Source: Spirochaetales bacterium
GTDB taxonomy: Bacteria > Spirochaetota > Spirochaetia > DSM-27196 > SKKC01
Assembly: GCA_007126865.1 (NCBI GenBank)
Contig: SLAN01000097.1
Coordinates: 1-9,427 of the forward strand
Length of the DNA stretch: 9,427 nucleotides
Reading direction: 5' to 3'
The translations under genes were made by a program, and so were the position numbers. The notes beneath the pieces were generated by a model. That model had not been told where the DNA came from. It did not search any database and saw only the letters and a program-made list of their open reading frames with translations. Of this stretch, positions 2,704 through 9,427 are shown piece after piece (positions within the stretch are counted from its first letter, which is position 1; every line of letters begins with the position of its first letter).

Positions 2704-4431
2704 TCACAGGTGTGGGTTACTCAAATGGTCTGCTGCCATCACCTTCGAGATGTGGCTTGCCGAGTCGGCAGCATCTCTGAATGCTTCCGACATCGTCGGG
2801 TGTGGAGCGACGATCTTTGAGATCTCGTGCACCGACATGCCGGTATCGATAGCCATTGCCGCCTGTGCTATGAGCTCGGAAACTCCGTGGCCCATCATAA
2901 ACGCTCCGACGAGCTTACCCGACCTCACTTCCGATACGAGCCGGCACCAACCGCGAGCATCGGCGTGCTCGGCGAGGTAGCGATTGTTCGAGGCGAGGGG
3001 CAGGAGGTTCACTTCGACCTCAAGTCCATCCGCCTCCGCTTGAACCTGATTTCGCCCGCATCCGGCCAGCTCCGGCATAGTATAAACGATCCACGGCATT
3101 GCATTCATGTTCACTGTATCGGTGCCGTCACCGAACATGTTGTTCACCGCGACGTCGGCCATACGATACGCCGCATGAGCCAACATGAGTTTCCCGGTAA
3201 CATCGCCGGCGGCATACACCCCTTCGAGGTTCGTCCGCATATATCCATCGACCGTTATGCCGTGCTCGTTAACTTCGATGCCGTGCTCGTCTACACCTCC
3301 GATCCGCGGGCGACGCCCGACCACCTGAATAACGCAATCTGTCTCGAGCGACTGTTCGCCTCGTTCATCAGCGTAATGGACCGTATTCCCGCTCACCCTG
3401 CGTGCTTGTGCGTTGACGATGAATCGGGTTGTATCCATTGCCAGACGCATCTGCCGACCTATATCGGATCCCGCAAAACTCAACACGTCGGACTCGCTTT
3501 CCATGACAGTCACACGCGACCCGAGGGCGGCGAACAATCCGGCGATCTCCAGTCCGATATATCCCCCTCCGAGAATCAACATACGATCGGGGACTTCGTT
3601 CAGATCAAAGGCAGCCGCACTACCGAGCACCGGTATGGATGCATCGGATATATCGACATTAAAGGGGGTCCCCTGCGCACCGTTGGCGATGAGTATATAC
3701 CGCGTGCGGTATTCCGTCCCTCCCGCGAGGACCTTTCCCGGACCGAGAAAGTGCGCACCGGCATGGACGACCCGGACCCCGGCTCGTTTCAGCTGTCCCT
3801 CGATTCCGCGCCGCAATCGTTCAACGGAACGATTCTTCCAATCGAGCGCGGTCTTGTGATTGTAGCTCAGTCGACCGGTTTCGATGCCCATAGCTGCCGA
3901 ATCGGCTGCTCCGCGATACACTCGGGCTATATGTATGAGGGTTTTCGCCGGCACGCAGCCGAAGTTCAGACATGTCCCGCCGAGAAGATTCTCCTCGGCG
4001 AGAACGACGTTCGCTCCGTGTCTCGCAGCACGCAGCGCAGCTCTATACCCGGCCGGCCCGCCCCCGATTACAAAGAGGTCGATATCGGAGCCACTCCCGA
4101 CCGGCGAGGTGGGAATGCCTCCCGCTTCGCGCAGCATGTCATCCGGATCGGCACTTACCCCCGGTGTCGAAAGGTCGTCGGAAAGGGCCTCGCCCGGCTC
4201 TCCGACGAGGGCGAGCGCAGTCCCGCTCTGAACCTCGTCTCCGGGAGCGTAGAAGAGCTGAAGGACCTTCCCGTCAACCTTCGACGTGATCTCGATCGTG
4301 CCCCCCGGCGATTCGAGGGTACACAGCGTCTCACCACGCTCGACCACCGAGCCGACCGAAACCGACCAGTCGAGCAGGACCGCGCTCTCTGTCTGATACT
4401 CTTCACCTTCGAATGTGATTTCCTGGACCAT
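2704..4431 (-). CDS. lpdA: Dihydrolipoamide dehydrogenase with N-terminal lipoyl-like domain lacking the lipoyl lysine
   Basis: FAD-dependent pyridine-nucleotide disulfide oxidoreductase (E3) that reoxidises dihydrolipoyl groups with NAD+ in 2-oxoacid dehydrogenase or glycine-cleavage complexes. Domains: a lipoyl/biotinyl-like domain at 1-80; an acidic, Ser/Gly/Pro-containing linker at about 80-115; FAD-binding GGGPAG (123-128); the redox-active pair Cys154-Cys159 in GGTCLNFGCVPAK; NAD-binding GGGYIGLEIAG (288-298); the FAD motif YAAGD (406-410); and a C-terminal dimerisation domain with the His544-Pro-x3-Glu549 catalytic dyad. The E3 part is thus intact. In the N-terminal domain the usual Glu-x-Asp-Lys-Ala hairpin reads LESPGGTIEI, with Gly43 where the lipoylated Lys belongs, so this domain should not carry lipoate. 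The total of 575 residues fits E3 (about 465) plus one such domain. First gene of a four-gene minus-strand set. No E1, E2 or H-protein gene is in the window, so its parent complex is unknown. The ATG at 4431 is preceded by a weak AGTAGG; no alternative start upstream is convincing. Confidence 0.93.
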   Translation of the reverse strand: MVQEITFEGEEYQTESAVLLDWSVSVGSVVERGETLCTLESPGGTIEITSKVDGKVLQLFYAPGDEVQSGTALALVGEPGEALSDDLSTPGVSADPDDMLREAGGIPTSPVGSGSDIDLFVIGGGPAGYRAALRAARHGANVVLAEENLLGGTCLNFGCVPAKTLIHIARVYRGAADSAAMGIETGRLSYNHKTALDWKNRSVERLRRGIEGQLKRAGVRVVHAGAHFLGPGKVLAGGTEYRTRYILIANGAQGTPFNVDISDASIPVLGSAAAFDLNEVPDRMLILGGGYIGLEIAGLFAALGSRVTVMESESDVLSFAGSDIGRQMRLAMDTTRFIVNAQARRVSGNTVHYADERGEQSLETDCVIQVVGRRPRIGGVDEHGIEVNEHGITVDGYMRTNLEGVYAAGDVTGKLMLAHAAYRMADVAVNNMFGDGTDTVNMNAMPWIVYTMPELAGCGRNQVQAEADGLEVEVNLLPLASNNRYLAEHADARGWCRLVSEVRSGKLVGAFMMGHGVSELIAQAAMAIDTGMSVHEISKIVAPHPTMSEAFRDAADSASHISKVMAADHLSNPHL

Positions 4432-4598: not shown

Positions 4599-7500
4599 AT
4601 GAGCTCGTATGATCGTACGGAAGCAGATTCGCACTCTCGTGATCAGGTCGTGACCGAAAGCCGTCTGATTATTCTCGGTGCGGGCATGCCGTTTCGTGGA
4701 GAGCAGCATTCGGCGCTGCGCGATACAGCCCACAACGGGCTCGTATTCGACTGGCTTCTGCACGCCTTCAGCTCAGTTCGACCGTCGGTACACTTCATCG
4801 GTGGATACCGGATTGAAGATGTCGTGCGTCGCTATCCCTCGATTCATTACACGGTGAATCCGGAGTGGGATCGCACAGGCCCGGCCGACTCACTGTTGCG
4901 AGCACCGTTCGACGACGCGGCTGAGCACTTTGTCTCGTATGCCGACGTTCTCATTCGCGAATCGCTTGTCGGGGCGCTTACGGAGGTGAGCTCGGATATC
5001 GTCGTAGCGGTCGATACCTCCTGGCGTCATCGCTTTGCCGGCAGATCGAAGGCTGACGTTGAGCGGTGTGAAAAAGTTACTCTGCATGGCGATTCGGTTA
5101 CGCGAATCGGTACTGACATAATCTCAAGCGTCGCCGATGCTGAGTTCCTCGGTGTGTGTCTGCTCCGGCCCGCGGTTTCGCGCGAGCTCGCCCATGCCTG
5201 GGACACGTTGCCGGCGGAGATCCGGAAATCGAAGGTCGGTGACCTGCTCGAGATTCTTCGTACCCGCGGATTCTCGGTTCGAGCGGTCGACGTGCAAGGA
5301 GACTGGGCGGAGCTCAACGAACCGAAGGATCTCGCGCATTTCATCTTCGGAACAAAAGCGCAAACACTCGATCGCCTCCAACGACTGGTGCGGCGCAGCC
5401 GCATTCTGGAACAAGTAAGCTGCACGGTATCGGAGTGGCAAGCTGATTGCGCCGCAATCCTGAGGTCGGTCGGGGAGGCGTTCGCGCGTACGAACATTGT
5501 TGTGCGCAGTAGTGCACTTACGGAAGACGGTTTTTCCAGCGCGAACGCCGGCGCGTTCACAAGCGTGCTGAACGTGGATGGGAGCGACGAAGAGGCGGTT
5601 CGTAGCGCTATCGATGAGGTGATAGAGAGCTATCCGGACGACAACCCGCATAATCAGGTGCTGATTCAACCGATGGTGGAGCGCGTGCGAGCGAGCGGCG
5701 TGGTTTTCACGAGAACGCTCGCCCACGGGGCGCCGTATTATGTCGTAAACTACGACGATGTCACGAGGAGCACCGAATCGATCACAAGCGGATCGAGCAG
5801 GGAGCATAAGACGCTCGTCATGCATCGCAGCATATCGAGCGACGACCCGAGTATCCCGCCGAGCATCGAGCGGCTGTTGCCGGCAGTGCGCGAGATCGAG
5901 GACCTGATCGGTTACGATGCGCTCGATATCGAGTTCGCGGTGGACGTTGACGGTCATGTTCACGTTCTCCAGGTTCGGCCGATTGCCGTCGATCACGGCT
6001 CCTACGGCAACTCGGATCGTCGCGTGGACGCAATGCTGGAACAGGCTGTCGAGCTGTTCCGCGCCCGTCAGGAACCCGGTGCCAGTCAGGTAGGCCGACA
6101 TGCGTACTTCGGTATTATGCCCGACTGGAATCCGGCGGAGATCATCGGTACGAGACCCGGCCGCCTCGCGGTGACCCTATACCGATATCTCATTATGGAC
6201 GAAATCTGGGCCACACAACGCGCCGAATACGGCTATCGCGATGTCCGTCCGGCTCCGTTGCTGGTATCGTTCGCCGGCCATCCGTATGTCGACATCCGGG
6301 CGAGCTTCAACTCATTCGTACCGGCGGTCCTCGACGACGGACTGGCAGAACGCCTCGTAGACTTCTATCTCGAGCGGCTGCGAAAGCACCCCGAGTACCA
6401 TGACAAGGTCGAGTTCGAAGTCGTTCCGACCTGCTACGGGCTGAACTTCGATCGGTGGCGGGCGCTCCTGGAGGAGGAGGGCGGTTTCGACTCCGCTGAG
6501 ATCGATGAGCTCGCCGATGCCTTGCGCTCGTTGACTGCATCGGCGTTCGATCGATGCCCCGGCGACCTCGAGAGCATTCGTACTCTCGAGAGCCGTTACG
6601 AACGCATAATGCTCTCCGGACTGCCCCCGTTGCAACGAGCGCTCTGCCTCCTGGAGGACTGCAAACGGTACGGAACGCTCGCGTTCTCGCATCTCGCTCG
6701 CAGTGCGTTCGTCGCGGTGACGTTGCTGCGAACCGCGGTGTCCATCGGCGCCATATCGAGCGAGGCATCGGAGGCGTTCATGGAGTCGATCCGTACGGTA
6801 ACTCACCAGTTCACCGAGGATGCGCGGCTAGCGGCAGACGGCCGCATGGAGCGCGATAGCTTCTACCGCCGCTATGGGCATCTCCGGCCCGGTACCTATG
6901 ACATCACTTCTCACAGTTACGGTGAGGACCCGGAGCGTTATCTGGCGCCGATGCTCGCGAAGGCCCACGCACTTTCGGTCGGACGTGAAGAGACGCAGTC
7001 CGTCACGCACTCGCAGAAAGGAACGGGGCCGGAGGCAGACGGTTTTGTGGAGTCGACCGACGGCTCACCGGCGGCTTGGGTCCGCGAACGCGAGGCGTTT
7101 GCCTCCGCGCTGGCGAATGCAGGGCTTTCCGGCGATATCGGCCGTGTCGAGAACTTCATGCGTGAGGCGATCGAAGGGAGGGAGTACGCGAAGTTTGCTT
7201 TTTCTCGCAACCTCTCCTCGGCGATCGACGCCATCGCCGAGTACGGCAGGGATCTCGGCCTCTCGCGTCATACGCTCTCGAATGTCCCGCTCGAGGTCTT
7301 CGAGGCGTTGCGAAGCGGCGATGCACCGAGAAGCGATGCCGCCGACTGGATTCGCTCGGTCTCCGAGGAGTACGAGTCTGCGCGTGAGATTGCGAATGCG
7401 GTTGAGCTCCCTCCACTGATTTTCGACGAGCGCGATATTCACGTATTCGTGTATCCGGGGAATACCCCCAATTTCATCGGGAGTGGCCGGATTACCGCCG

Positions 7501-7784
7501 ATTGTGTCGATCTGTCCGAAGTCGAAGACGACAGCGAGGTCGATATCTCGGGTAAGATCGTACTGATACCGCAGGCCGACCCCGGCTACGACTGGCTGTT
7601 CGGCCAGGAGATAGCGGGGCTTATCACGACTTACGGCGGAGCAAACTCTCATATGGCGATCCGCTCCGCTGAGTTCGGTCTGCCGGCGGCGATCGGTGTC
7701 GGCGAGCAGGAGTATCGCCGGGTATCGGGGGCGCGTTGTCTCGAGCTGGATGCCGGCAATCATCACATACGGGTCGTTCGCTGA
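4599..7784 (+). CDS. Nucleotidyltransferase-like domain fused to PEP-synthase-like L-glutamine kinase (Cj1418 type)
   Basis: Large cytoplasmic fusion of 1061 residues. Residues about 22-255 form a sugar-nucleotidyltransferase-like GT-A domain: strand LIILGAG (23-29), then PFRGEQHSAL in place of the usual R-x-x-P-K loop, a probable metal site in YADVLI (114-119) and an end motif WAELNEPKDL (236-245). Residues about 265-463 are a PPDK/PEP-synthase ATP-grasp domain, with VVRSSALTEDG (301-311) and the closing LQVRPIA (457-463). Residues about 500-790 match the middle region of glutamine kinases (FGIMPDWNPAEIIG at 504-517, EYGYRDVRPAPL at 543-554). A linker at about 795-825 looks disordered. Residues about 940-1061 are the swivelling phosphohistidine domain with GGANSH; His1018 (codon 7650-7652) is the predicted phosphorylated residue. 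The PEP/pyruvate barrel of true PEP synthase is absent. In Campylobacter, Cj1418 uses ATP to phosphorylate the amide nitrogen of L-glutamine; the same role is inferred here from sequence type and from the next two genes. Its stop overlaps the next start (TGATG). Confidence 0.85.
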   Translation: MSSYDRTEADSHSRDQVVTESRLIILGAGMPFRGEQHSALRDTAHNGLVFDWLLHAFSSVRPSVHFIGGYRIEDVVRRYPSIHYTVNPEWDRTGPADSLLRAPFDDAAEHFVSYADVLIRESLVGALTEVSSDIVVAVDTSWRHRFAGRSKADVERCEKVTLHGDSVTRIGTDIISSVADAEFLGVCLLRPAVSRELAHAWDTLPAEIRKSKVGDLLEILRTRGFSVRAVDVQGDWAELNEPKDLAHFIFGTKAQTLDRLQRLVRRSRILEQVSCTVSEWQADCAAILRSVGEAFARTNIVVRSSALTEDGFSSANAGAFTSVLNVDGSDEEAVRSAIDEVIESYPDDNPHNQVLIQPMVERVRASGVVFTRTLAHGAPYYVVNYDDVTRSTESITSGSSREHKTLVMHRSISSDDPSIPPSIERLLPAVREIEDLIGYDALDIEFAVDVDGHVHVLQVRPIAVDHGSYGNSDRRVDAMLEQAVELFRARQEPGASQVGRHAYFGIMPDWNPAEIIGTRPGRLAVTLYRYLIMDEIWATQRAEYGYRDVRPAPLLVSFAGHPYVDIRASFNSFVPAVLDDGLAERLVDFYLERLRKHPEYHDKVEFEVVPTCYGLNFDRWRALLEEEGGFDSAEIDELADALRSLTASAFDRCPGDLESIRTLESRYERIMLSGLPPLQRALCLLEDCKRYGTLAFSHLARSAFVAVTLLRTAVSIGAISSEASEAFMESIRTVTHQFTEDARLAADGRMERDSFYRRYGHLRPGTYDITSHSYGEDPERYLAPMLAKAHALSVGREETQSVTHSQKGTGPEADGFVESTDGSPAAWVREREAFASALANAGLSGDIGRVENFMREAIEGREYAKFAFSRNLSSAIDAIAEYGRDLGLSRHTLSNVPLEVFEALRSGDAPRSDAADWIRSVSEEYESAREIANAVELPPLIFDERDIHVFVYPGNTPNFIGSGRITADCVDLSEVEDDSEVDISGKIVLIPQADPGYDWLFGQEIAGLITTYGGANSHMAIRSAEFGLPAAIGVGEQEYRRVSGARCLELDAGNHHIRVVR

Positions 7785-8476
7785 TGCACCTGCGGAGAAT
7801 CGCCGTTACACAGCGAGTCGACGAGGTGGCTTCCTACCGCGAACGCCGGGACTGCATCGATCAGCGTTGGGCTGTACTCCTGGGGCGATGCGGATTCCTA
7901 CCGGTTTACGTTCCGAATACATTGTCCGATATCGAGGCGTGGGTCTCATCGTTGAATGTCGAGGGATGTATCCTGACCGGCGGAAACGATCTCTCATCGA
8001 TACCCGGTGCAGGCTCGCCCGCGCCGGAGCGCGATCGCACCGAGGCGGCGCTGCTCGATATGGCATATGCCGACGCTCTTCCCGTTCTCGGCGTTTGCCG
8101 CGGCCTTCAGATGCTCAATTACTACTTCGGTGGCTCATTGACACCGGTGGGCGGTCATGTGGCGGTGCGTCACACCGTGTCTCCGATCGGTTCGGCCGAG
8201 GAGCACGAGGGGGCGCCGTCAGCACATCTGATACGAAACGCCCCGCTCGAGGTGAACAGCTTCCACGATTACGGCTTTTCCGCCGAGGACACCTCGCGCC
8301 GGCTCGTACCACTGCTTGCAAGCGACGACGGCTGCGTGGAAGCGGTCGTCCATCGAGAGTTGCCGTGGGTCGGGATAATGTGGCACCCGGAACGCGAAGA
8401 GCCGTTCCGTGACCCCGATATCGGTTTGATCGGGATGCTGTTCGGAGATACAAGCGACGAAAAGGAGTACCAATGA
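7784..8476 (+). CDS. Class I glutamine-amidotransferase-like hydrolase (peptidase C26; Cj1417-type gamma-glutamyl-CDP-amidate hydrolase)
   Basis: Cytoplasmic hydrolase of 230 residues with the class I glutamine amidotransferase fold. The nucleophile elbow LGVCRGLQMLN places Cys105 as the nucleophile. His201 and Glu203 in MWHPERE complete the triad. TGGNDL (65-70) is the oxyanion-loop region of the gamma-glutamyl hydrolase group. On sequence alone it could be a PuuD-like gamma-glutamyl-GABA hydrolase. Lying between a glutamine kinase and a cytidylyltransferase, it instead matches Cj1417, which cleaves CDP-linked glutamine to cytidine diphosphoramidate and glutamate. I chose the ATG at 7784 over the in-frame ATG at 7736: it makes a TGATG overlap with the previous stop, avoids a 48-nt overlap, and the extra residues are not family-like. 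There is no clear Shine-Dalgarno, so translation is probably coupled to the upstream gene. Its stop overlaps the next gene by 4 nt (ATGA). Confidence 0.87.
   Translation: MHLRRIAVTQRVDEVASYRERRDCIDQRWAVLLGRCGFLPVYVPNTLSDIEAWVSSLNVEGCILTGGNDLSSIPGAGSPAPERDRTEAALLDMAYADALPVLGVCRGLQMLNYYFGGSLTPVGGHVAVRHTVSPIGSAEEHEGAPSAHLIRNAPLEVNSFHDYGFSAEDTSRRLVPLLASDDGCVEAVVHRELPWVGIMWHPEREEPFRDPDIGLIGMLFGDTSDEKEYQ
8461..8467 (+). promoter_or_regulatory. Ribosome binding site of the cytidylyltransferase gene
   Basis: AAAGGAG inside the end of the hydrolase gene, 5 nt before the ATG at 8473. It is the strongest Shine-Dalgarno of the plus-strand cluster and fixes this start; with the ATGA overlap it indicates both coupled and independent initiation. 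Confidence 0.8.
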
Positions 8477-9252
8477 CCTCGATTATCCTCGCGGCAGGGC
8501 AGGGGACGCGGTTACGACCATACACCGACGAAGTACCGAAGTGCATGGTGCCGTTGGCCGGGAAACCGCTTCTGCACCATCAGATGGAAACGCTCGCCGC
8601 CTCCGGGGCGGATGCCGATATGGTAGTGGTCGGCGGATATCGCTCGGAGCGACTCGACCTGCGCAACGCGGATCTGGTCACTAATCCGGCCTACGATACG
8701 ACGAACATGGTCGCCACACTTTTCCGTGCCCGAGACCGAATGCGCGACGGTGAAGACCTTCTCATCAGCTACGGCGATATCGTGTTCGAACCGAGGGTAT
8801 TACGGGCACTGATCGACGCCGTCGGCGGCATCCGTCTGGCTGCCGACCGGCAATGGAAGCGACTGTGGAGCACTCGCATGGATAATCCGCTCGATGACGC
8901 GGAAACGTTCCGTATGGACGAGAACGGGAGAGTGATCGAGCTGGGAAAGAAACCGGAGGGCTACGCGACGGTGCAGGCGCAATATATGGGGCTCATCTTC
9001 GTTCGCGGTGACCGGGTAGCCGATTTCAAGCGTGCATACGACGAGCTCGATCGCGACGCAATGTACGACGGCAAGGATTTTGACAACATGTATATGACAA
9101 GCTTTCTCCAGTATCTCATCGATACCGGCCGTGTTGTGCACGCATGCCTGGTCGATTCCGGGTGGCTGGAGGTGGATACCGCCGAGGAGCTCGAGCGTTT
9201 CGAGACGATGGCCTCCAACGGCACGCTCGACGATTACTGTCGACTATCATAG
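8473..9252 (+). CDS. LicC/Cj1416-type nucleotidyltransferase, probable CTP:phosphoglutamine cytidylyltransferase
   Basis: Cytoplasmic nucleotidyltransferase of 259 residues, one GT-A-type domain. The N-terminal signature ILAAGQGTRL (5-14) with Pro22-Lys23 binds the nucleoside triphosphate. SYGDIVF (99-105) gives the metal-binding Asp102. NPAYDTTNMVATLF (71-84) resembles the choline-phosphate cytidylyltransferase LicC and Cj1416 group. SGWLEVDTAEEL (229-240) is the C-terminal metal/ligand motif of the family, with Asp235. The region at 127-162 (KRLWSTRMDNPLDDAE, then IELGKKP) also fits that subgroup. In Campylobacter, Cj1416 couples L-glutamine phosphate to CTP, giving CDP-L-glutamine and pyrophosphate; this is the inferred reaction. 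A phosphocholine or phosphonate cytidylyltransferase is the main alternative, but no choline kinase or PEP mutase is present. Last gene of the plus-strand cluster; the next gene is convergent. Confidence 0.88.
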   Translation: MTSIILAAGQGTRLRPYTDEVPKCMVPLAGKPLLHHQMETLAASGADADMVVVGGYRSERLDLRNADLVTNPAYDTTNMVATLFRARDRMRDGEDLLISYGDIVFEPRVLRALIDAVGGIRLAADRQWKRLWSTRMDNPLDDAETFRMDENGRVIELGKKPEGYATVQAQYMGLIFVRGDRVADFKRAYDELDRDAMYDGKDFDNMYMTSFLQYLIDTGRVVHACLVDSGWLEVDTAEELERFETMASNGTLDDYCRLS

Positions 9253-9311
9253 CCCCTTGGCGCGCGCCCGATGTATGGCCACCACTCGGAACGGATTGCC
9301 CGGGGATACCG
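9253..9311. other. Short convergent intergenic gap
   Basis: 59 nt between the cytidylyltransferase stop and the probable stop of the convergent gene. It holds a 10-bp GC palindrome (9259-9268, GGCGCGCGCC). A weak inverted repeat, GCCCG ... CGGGC, starts near 9298 and runs into the end of the next gene. Neither has a following T tract, so no intrinsic terminator can be called. Confidence 0.4.
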
Positions 9312-9427
9312 TCACTCGGGCGGTTCGGTGCTGAGCCGCAGAAGCTGGATCGAGCGGGCGGCCACCGTGCCGGACGCGCATCTCTCCTCGCTTGCCGGCT
9401 CTCCGCGCTCGTAGACGGTATCGAGCA
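9312..9427 (-). CDS. C-terminal end of an unidentified minus-strand protein (runs off right edge)
   Basis: A reading frame open from the right edge to a TGA at 9314-9312 encodes the last 37 residues of a protein, beginning LDTVYERGEPASEERC and ending RLSTEPPE. I prefer this frame because its codons have the G/C-rich third positions of the neighbouring genes and its composition (Glu, Ala, Leu, Ser) is protein-like. The other minus frames here are Arg-rich and look like shadows. The fragment is too short to recognise a family. If real, it is convergent with the cytidylyltransferase gene, so that operon ends at 9252 and no CDP-amidate kinase gene follows directly. Confidence 0.5.
   Translation of the reverse strand, partial: LDTVYERGEPASEERCASGTVAARSIQLLRLSTEPPE

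Follow-up and report, generated by a model that had tools for sequence, protein, structure and literature searches.

Does a spirochaete make an activated donor that contains a phosphorus-nitrogen (P-N) bond, and why does the kinase that may start the pathway carry an additional N-terminal domain? Both questions are raised by a three-gene operon at positions 4599 to 9252 of the window, which is the whole 9,427-nucleotide stretch that we analysed (contig SLAN01000097.1 of the Spirochaetales bacterium assembly GCA_007126865.1). In Campylobacter jejuni, Cj1418 is a glutamine kinase, Cj1416 a phosphoglutamine cytidylyltransferase, Cj1417 a gamma-glutamyl-cytidine diphosphate (CDP)-amidate hydrolase and Cj1415 a CDP-amidate 3'-kinase. 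Cj1415-Cj1418 are reported to make CDP-phosphoramidate 3'-phosphate jointly from glutamine, adenosine triphosphate (ATP) and cytidine triphosphate (CTP) (PMC11800397); the glutamine kinase reaction is described in a further source, where P-N bonds are termed rare in biology (PMC6429109). On the strength of sequence comparisons, we consider it probable that the window holds a closed operon of Campylobacter-type homologues that makes CDP-amidate, that the domain fused to its kinase, here termed KN, only binds an intermediate, and that relatives with this fused long form mostly use CDP-amidate itself. Synthesis of a CDP-amidate donor is a well-supported prediction.

The first gene (4599..7784, + strand) encodes the long-form glutamine-kinase-like protein of 1061 amino acids, which consists of KN, an ATP-binding domain, a central region and a phospho-histidine domain. 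Its stop codon overlaps in TGATG (7782..7786, +) with the start of a hydrolase gene of the class I amidotransferase fold (7784..8476, +), whose product has 230 amino acids when read from the ATG of TGATG; the open reading frame listing extends this frame further 5', from a TTG upstream of that ATG. The hydrolase gene overlaps in ATGA (8473..8476, +) with the gene of a LicC-like nucleotidyltransferase (NTase) of 259 amino acids (8473..9252, +), a candidate CTP:phosphoglutamine cytidylyltransferase. The original prediction had described these three coupled genes with both overlaps, and they are present as described; it had overlooked the extra N-terminal kinase domain (residues 1-240) and the fact that both operon borders lie inside the window. 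In the proposed pathway, the kinase core (KC) would phosphorylate the amide nitrogen of glutamine via phospho-H1018 with ATP, the NTase would couple the N-phosphoglutamine to CTP, and the hydrolase would free glutamate to leave CDP-NH2 (CDP-amidate). KN would hold phosphoglutamine or CDP-glutamine beside the kinase, for hand-over or feedback, and in many long-form members a phosphotransferase of PF04464 (CDP-glycerol type) would put unmethylated phosphoramidate on a surface glycan.

A protein search returned at least 5165 relatives of the kinase at E ≤0.001 among the 7997 best-sharing candidates scored, and the locus set comprised 80 of 489 confirmed genome-contig loci: 52 of the long form, 25 of a short form without KN, and 3 cut at a contig end. 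Genes on the fetched loci were called by a simple longest-frame routine, by which some were missed or overextended. A tblastn recount found the hydrolase in 50/52 long, 24/25 short and 3/3 cut loci and a canonical NTase, separate or fused, in 49/52, 25/25 and 3/3, respectively; the three long loci without it (L047, L071 and L083) all lie near the end of the available sequence.

KC (5319..7784, +) scored 879 bits against the NCBIfam model NF004508 (PRK05849; curated cut-off 501), with a match that starts at residue 243. The predicted phospho-histidine H1018, located in TYGGANSHMAIR of the swivelling domain, was kept in 80 of 82 long and short kinases, across which 88 columns were at least 97% invariant. 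Cj1418 presumably belongs to the same NF004508/PRK05849 family. All other NCBIfam models listed reached at most 52 bits on the kinase, with cut-offs of at least 456. A Pfam scan found PPDK_N and PEP-utilizers (PF00391) domains and listed no phosphoenolpyruvate (PEP)-barrel family for the kinase, in line with the original prediction of a PEP-synthase-like kinase that lacks the PEP barrel. Some long-form kinases (P0003, P0005 and others) are labelled PF27448 in the protein database; this family was not seen for P0003, P0005 and P0119 in the Pfam copy that we scanned.

The best NCBIfam family for the hydrolase was NF045546 (gamma-glutamyl-CDP-amidate hydrolase), and its triad C105/H201/E203 was invariant in 64/64 aligned hydrolase rows, which makes it a candidate for this activity. 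By sequence, the solved structure nearest to the NTase was LicC (1jyk), and its residues G9, G11, R13, P22, K23, D102, E144, W231, E233 and D235, which include the G-x-G-x-R, P-K and D positions, were invariant in 74/74 rows and identical in the long and short classes. The original prediction had named the same hydrolase fold and triad and the LicC-like character of the NTase and had proposed an examination of active-site residues. Its family assignments of all three proteins hold on homology and conserved residues, and the residues of the hydrolase and the NTase proved invariant among relatives.

Because KN (about kinase residues 1-240; 4599..5318, +) is without the conserved Lys and the second metal Asp of the NTase, we predict that this cytidylyltransferase-fold domain is catalytically dead, and we consider its assignment as a pseudoenzyme well supported. 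KN is paralogous to the operon's own NTase (hhalign E 1.6e-43) and has the fold of the LicC, PntC and inositol-1-phosphate cytidylyltransferase type, with GlmU-type folds tied. In the window, a loop Gly is replaced by Pro, the conserved Lys by Ser and the second metal Asp by Asn240. Among 55 aligned KN rows, the canonical residues are rarely kept (Lys in 2, the second loop Gly in 5 and the second Asp in 7), and the equivalents of NTase D102, E144, W231 and E233 are kept in 53, 54, 53 and 51 rows, respectively. It is unlikely that KN is instead an active nucleotidyltransferase with changed chemistry. Such activity would be consistent with the strong conservation of its own motif LGAGxPxxG and of D116, E158, W236 and E238, with the retention of Lys in two early-branching members alone (L032, from genome G029, and L080) and of the second Asp in seven, and with the loop Arg, whose loss depends on the alignment: it is kept in 3/55 rows in the gapped version but can be aligned in 16/55, the window included, in the ungapped one. 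However, not one of the 55 rows retains Arg, Lys and both Asp together, and a canonical NTase accompanies KN in all but the three long-form loci that lie near a sequence end. The early-branching members with Lys and the second Asp suggest that KN, the predicted pseudoenzyme, descended from an active enzyme. Two further arrangements of KN were observed. In a Maricaulaceae metagenome-assembled genome (MAG), one 1312-amino-acid protein has the order NTase-KN-kinase core (L058:9794-13732), and in G054:C149:8584-9138 a KN-like sequence (32% identity over residues 13-194) stands in a 255-amino-acid frame apart from a kinase match, with a loop that looks canonical and one TGA counted inside.

We compared the genes near the kinase (8 upstream and 9 downstream) between the two forms. 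A gene like adenosine 5'-phosphosulfate (APS) kinase (PF01583) was found near 4/52 long versus 16/25 short kinases, a 250-amino-acid methyltransferase near 0/52 versus 14/25, and the sulfotransferase-like family F87 near 0/52 versus 10/25. F87 scored 24.0 bits against PF13469, under the cut-off of 27, and with a looser profile the long locus L094 also has a single F87-like gene. By analogy, the short-form set fits the Campylobacter finishing steps. Because most of the fetched long-form members have no Campylobacter-type finishing enzymes adjacent, the long branch likely uses CDP-amidate differently, and we infer that it mostly uses it directly, unmethylated. A subfamily of PF04464 transferases occurred near 19/52 long versus 1/25 short kinases (BLAST >150 bits), and in 10 of the 80 loci (8 long, 2 cut) the PF04464 gene directly follows the NTase on the same strand. 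Most of the members scanned, though not all, exceed the Pfam cut-off (L074 is below it). These neighbourhoods in relatives point to PF04464 enzymes as possible direct users of CDP-amidate.

Around these genes, a long-form cluster of PF04464, YidC-like PF02096 and formyltransferase-like PF00551 proteins recurs (L046:14498-18964, L064, L067, L069 and L072), and several such clusters have two membrane proteins nearby, a sulfatase-like one and a small one of 70-95 amino acids with Y(L/I)DPG(S/T)GS. In a Treponema MAG (L114:4571-13691), a short-form operon stands beside a PF04464 protein and genes that by eye look like phosphonate biosynthesis (phosphonopyruvate decarboxylase, 2-aminoethylphosphonate transaminase, PEP mutase-like and cytidylyltransferase).

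Several results weigh against our reading of enzymes and donor use. The NF004508 model carries only the description 'hypothetical protein', and the label 'glutamine kinase' for the family comes from the source names of some relatives and from gene context. The hydrolase reached 115.5 bits against NF045546, below the cut-off of 250. Eight further hydrolases, from the short-form canonical clusters L113, L108, L087 and L106 and the long-form loci L080, L038, L040 and L057, also remained under this value (111-190 bits), so the cut-off excludes every one of them. Here L113, an Arcobacteraceae cluster, is our stand-in for C. jejuni Cj1416-Cj1418, a species whose name was not among the matches listed for the Arcobacteraceae kinase search. 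The counts of PF04464 depend on the definition: loose clustering gave 19/52 long versus 6/25 short loci (p 0.31), an in-sample profile gave 29/52 versus 7/25, and the rows are related, so that p-values overstate. An APS-kinase-like gene is present in four long loci (L061, L063, L094 and L095), three of which also have a sulfotransferase-like gene (L063 weakly). By profile, 10/52 long loci lie near some sulfotransferase-like gene, and seven of these ten (five Marinobacter, L054 and L092) have no APS-kinase-like gene nearby. The sulfotransferase identity was confirmed by Pfam for L042 and L061; L038_03, a further profile match, was dropped, since Pfam identified it as a heparinase. In Marinobacter L041-L044, a sulfotransferase-family gene at about 14470-15400 (-) is convergent with the NTase, again with no APS-kinase-like gene nearby. 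The finishing route thus seems to follow the type of transferase and not KN strictly. In the window's genus, PF04464 was found in 0/3 genomes, and in 0/5 when two others were included, all searched as incomplete genomes and with a search that was positive in 3/14 controls.

The same genus bears on whether the operon belongs to a complete Campylobacter-type O-methyl phosphoramidate (MeOPN) pathway, with the 3'-kinase, methyltransferase and transferase encoded elsewhere in the genome, which we regard as quite improbable. Room for such genes exists, as the three genus genomes (G000, which holds the window, to G002) are incomplete at 64.7, 81 and 89%, and an APS-kinase match does occur in G002. 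That match, however, lies inside a 660-amino-acid frame, which presumably resembles the CysNC fusions of sulfate assimilation, rather than in a separate gene that encodes about 170 amino acids, and the incomplete genomes G000 and G001 gave no match. A relative of the sulfotransferase-like MeOPN transferase was found in 0/3 genus genomes, in a search without a positive control, and 48/52 long-form loci are without an APS-kinase-like gene nearby.

We are similarly doubtful that long-form enzymes act on a different amide or nucleotide and make a P-N donor other than CDP-amidate. The window's KC is only 37-41% identical to short-form kinases, KN could signify altered specificity, and the hydrolase falls short of its equivalog cut-off. 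Against this, both kinase forms have the 88 near-invariant columns in common, and the invariant NTase residues do not differ between the classes. That the first gene encodes a rifampin phosphotransferase or PEP synthase in an operon unrelated to P-N chemistry, for which the best whole-fold Foldseek match of the predicted kinase would speak (rifampin phosphotransferase 5hv1, E 1e-17, TM-scores 0.33 and 0.40), we dismiss, because the models of these enzymes gave 22-52 bits against cut-offs of 598-1063, compared with 879 for NF004508, the PEP barrel was not listed, and the operon with hydrolase and NTase is conserved; the grouping that the original prediction had named as its refutation did not arise.

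The long form is spread across many phyla among the fetched loci, and relatives were also observed in haloarchaea and a Woesearchaeota MAG (L056 and L095, long; L098, short). Beyond two near sequences, the closest relatives of the window's kinase among the matches listed share about 61% identity and include Natronospira. In a kinase-core tree of 81 rows, built by a quick method with SH-aLRT support only, 24/25 short-form rows formed one clade with support 100, and the remaining row, L098, is a long branch. The window and its genus were placed, with supports of 95 and 98 for sets of 11 and 29 rows, among Legionella, Halomonas, Saccharospirillum and Marinobacter, far from G029, which is from the window's own order. 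Of 297 genomes in the class, only 6 have a relative at E ≤1e-40, the three of the window's genus included; 0/4 other genomes of the window's family have one. It is likely that the operon was acquired horizontally from a gammaproteobacterium-like source; guanine-cytosine contents of 0.59-0.61 for the operon genes and 0.57-0.61 for the neighbours give no sign of recent transfer. Viral contigs contained 52 pattern matches, none encoding a kinase relative, and a search of phage records with the third gene only found 14 that match, all below 60% identity.

The operon is a closed unit of three genes, because on its left a lipoamide-dehydrogenase-like gene with an N-terminal lipoyl domain (lpd, by family matches; 2704..4431, -) starts at 4431 and diverges, and on its right the C-terminal end of glgX (9312..9427, -; stop at 9312) converges. 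The latter was named through a relative in contig L034 of the same-genus genome G001 (TIGR02100, 654 bits). The window's genes around the operon are lpd, pfkB, usp, BCCT and glgX, with no capsule, glycosyltransferase or methyltransferase gene beside it, which agrees with the original prediction that neither of the first two is adjacent. Promoter and terminator scans found 1 and 1, versus 1.2 and 3.2 in shuffled sequence. The contigs of G000 (window 9253-9427) and G002 (L031 11625-11799) both stop exactly 175 bases past the NTase, inside glgX, perhaps an assembly break at a common spot.

A 2022 review regards glutamine kinase as C. jejuni-specific (PMC9561416); the fetched relatives come from many phyla, haloarchaea among them. 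Among the papers listed in our literature searches, in which subscription journals are little covered, we found no description of the fused KN-kinase form or of a PF04464 enzyme that uses CDP-amidate. Unmethylated phosphoramidate is reported in the lipopolysaccharide (LPS) of Xanthomonas campestris and Shewanella (PMC3907429). Among the matches listed, two Shewanella proteins have long-form length (990 and 997 amino acids), and S. pealeana and Shewanella sp. 10N.286.45.A1 are included; Shewanella sp. MR-4, which has phosphoramidate LPS, was not among them. A CDP-glycerol phosphotransferase gene, 06875, is named for the C. jejuni NCTC12662 capsule locus; the source ascribes MeOPN once to 06875 and elsewhere to 06810 (PMC8949473), and we counted it neither way. 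If our reading is true, these operons would make the unmethylated phosphoramidate of Xanthomonas and Shewanella LPS accessible to genetics, and KN would add a pseudoenzyme fusion open to tests in vitro. Tentatively, and with more doubt than confidence, we envisage a second and far wider P-N branch that extends over many phyla of bacteria and into some archaea, in which a glutamine kinase fused to its decayed partner cytidylyltransferase captures labile phosphoglutamine, and CDP-amidate without 3'-phosphate or methyl group passes through PF04464 enzymes to plain phosphoramidate on surface glycans; the spirochaete would keep the donor module alone, with an unrecognised acceptor.

Among known systems, rifampin phosphotransferase and PEP synthase share the ATP-binding and swivelling phospho-histidine domains with the kinase, which differs from them in having no listed PEP barrel and in scoring far under the family sequence cut-offs. 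The PF04464 CDP-glycerol:poly(glycerophosphate) glycerophosphotransferases (TagF type) resemble the divergent subfamily near 19/52 long-form kinases, which would likewise take a CDP-linked donor; they differ in that CDP-amidate is the presumed donor here and that the gene was not found in the window's genus (three genomes, all incomplete). The LicC, PntC and inositol-1-phosphate cytidylyltransferases are akin to the window's NTase by sequence and to KN by fold, whereas the Lys, the loop's second Gly and the second metal Asp are missing from KN. The C. jejuni Cj1415-Cj1418 system resembles the window in three homologous types of enzyme and in their order of kinase, hydrolase and cytidylyltransferase (a likeness drawn through families and the L113 stand-in), and the window operon has conserved catalytic residues and tight gene coupling as well. 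Unlike in C. jejuni, no Cj1415-like kinase, methyltransferase, MeOPN transferase or capsule gene adjoins the window's operon, and its kinase has an extra N-terminal pseudo-cytidylyltransferase domain. Compared at this level, the pathway would be a known one, the synthesis of CDP-amidate, and what appears new is the KN-fused variant of its kinase.

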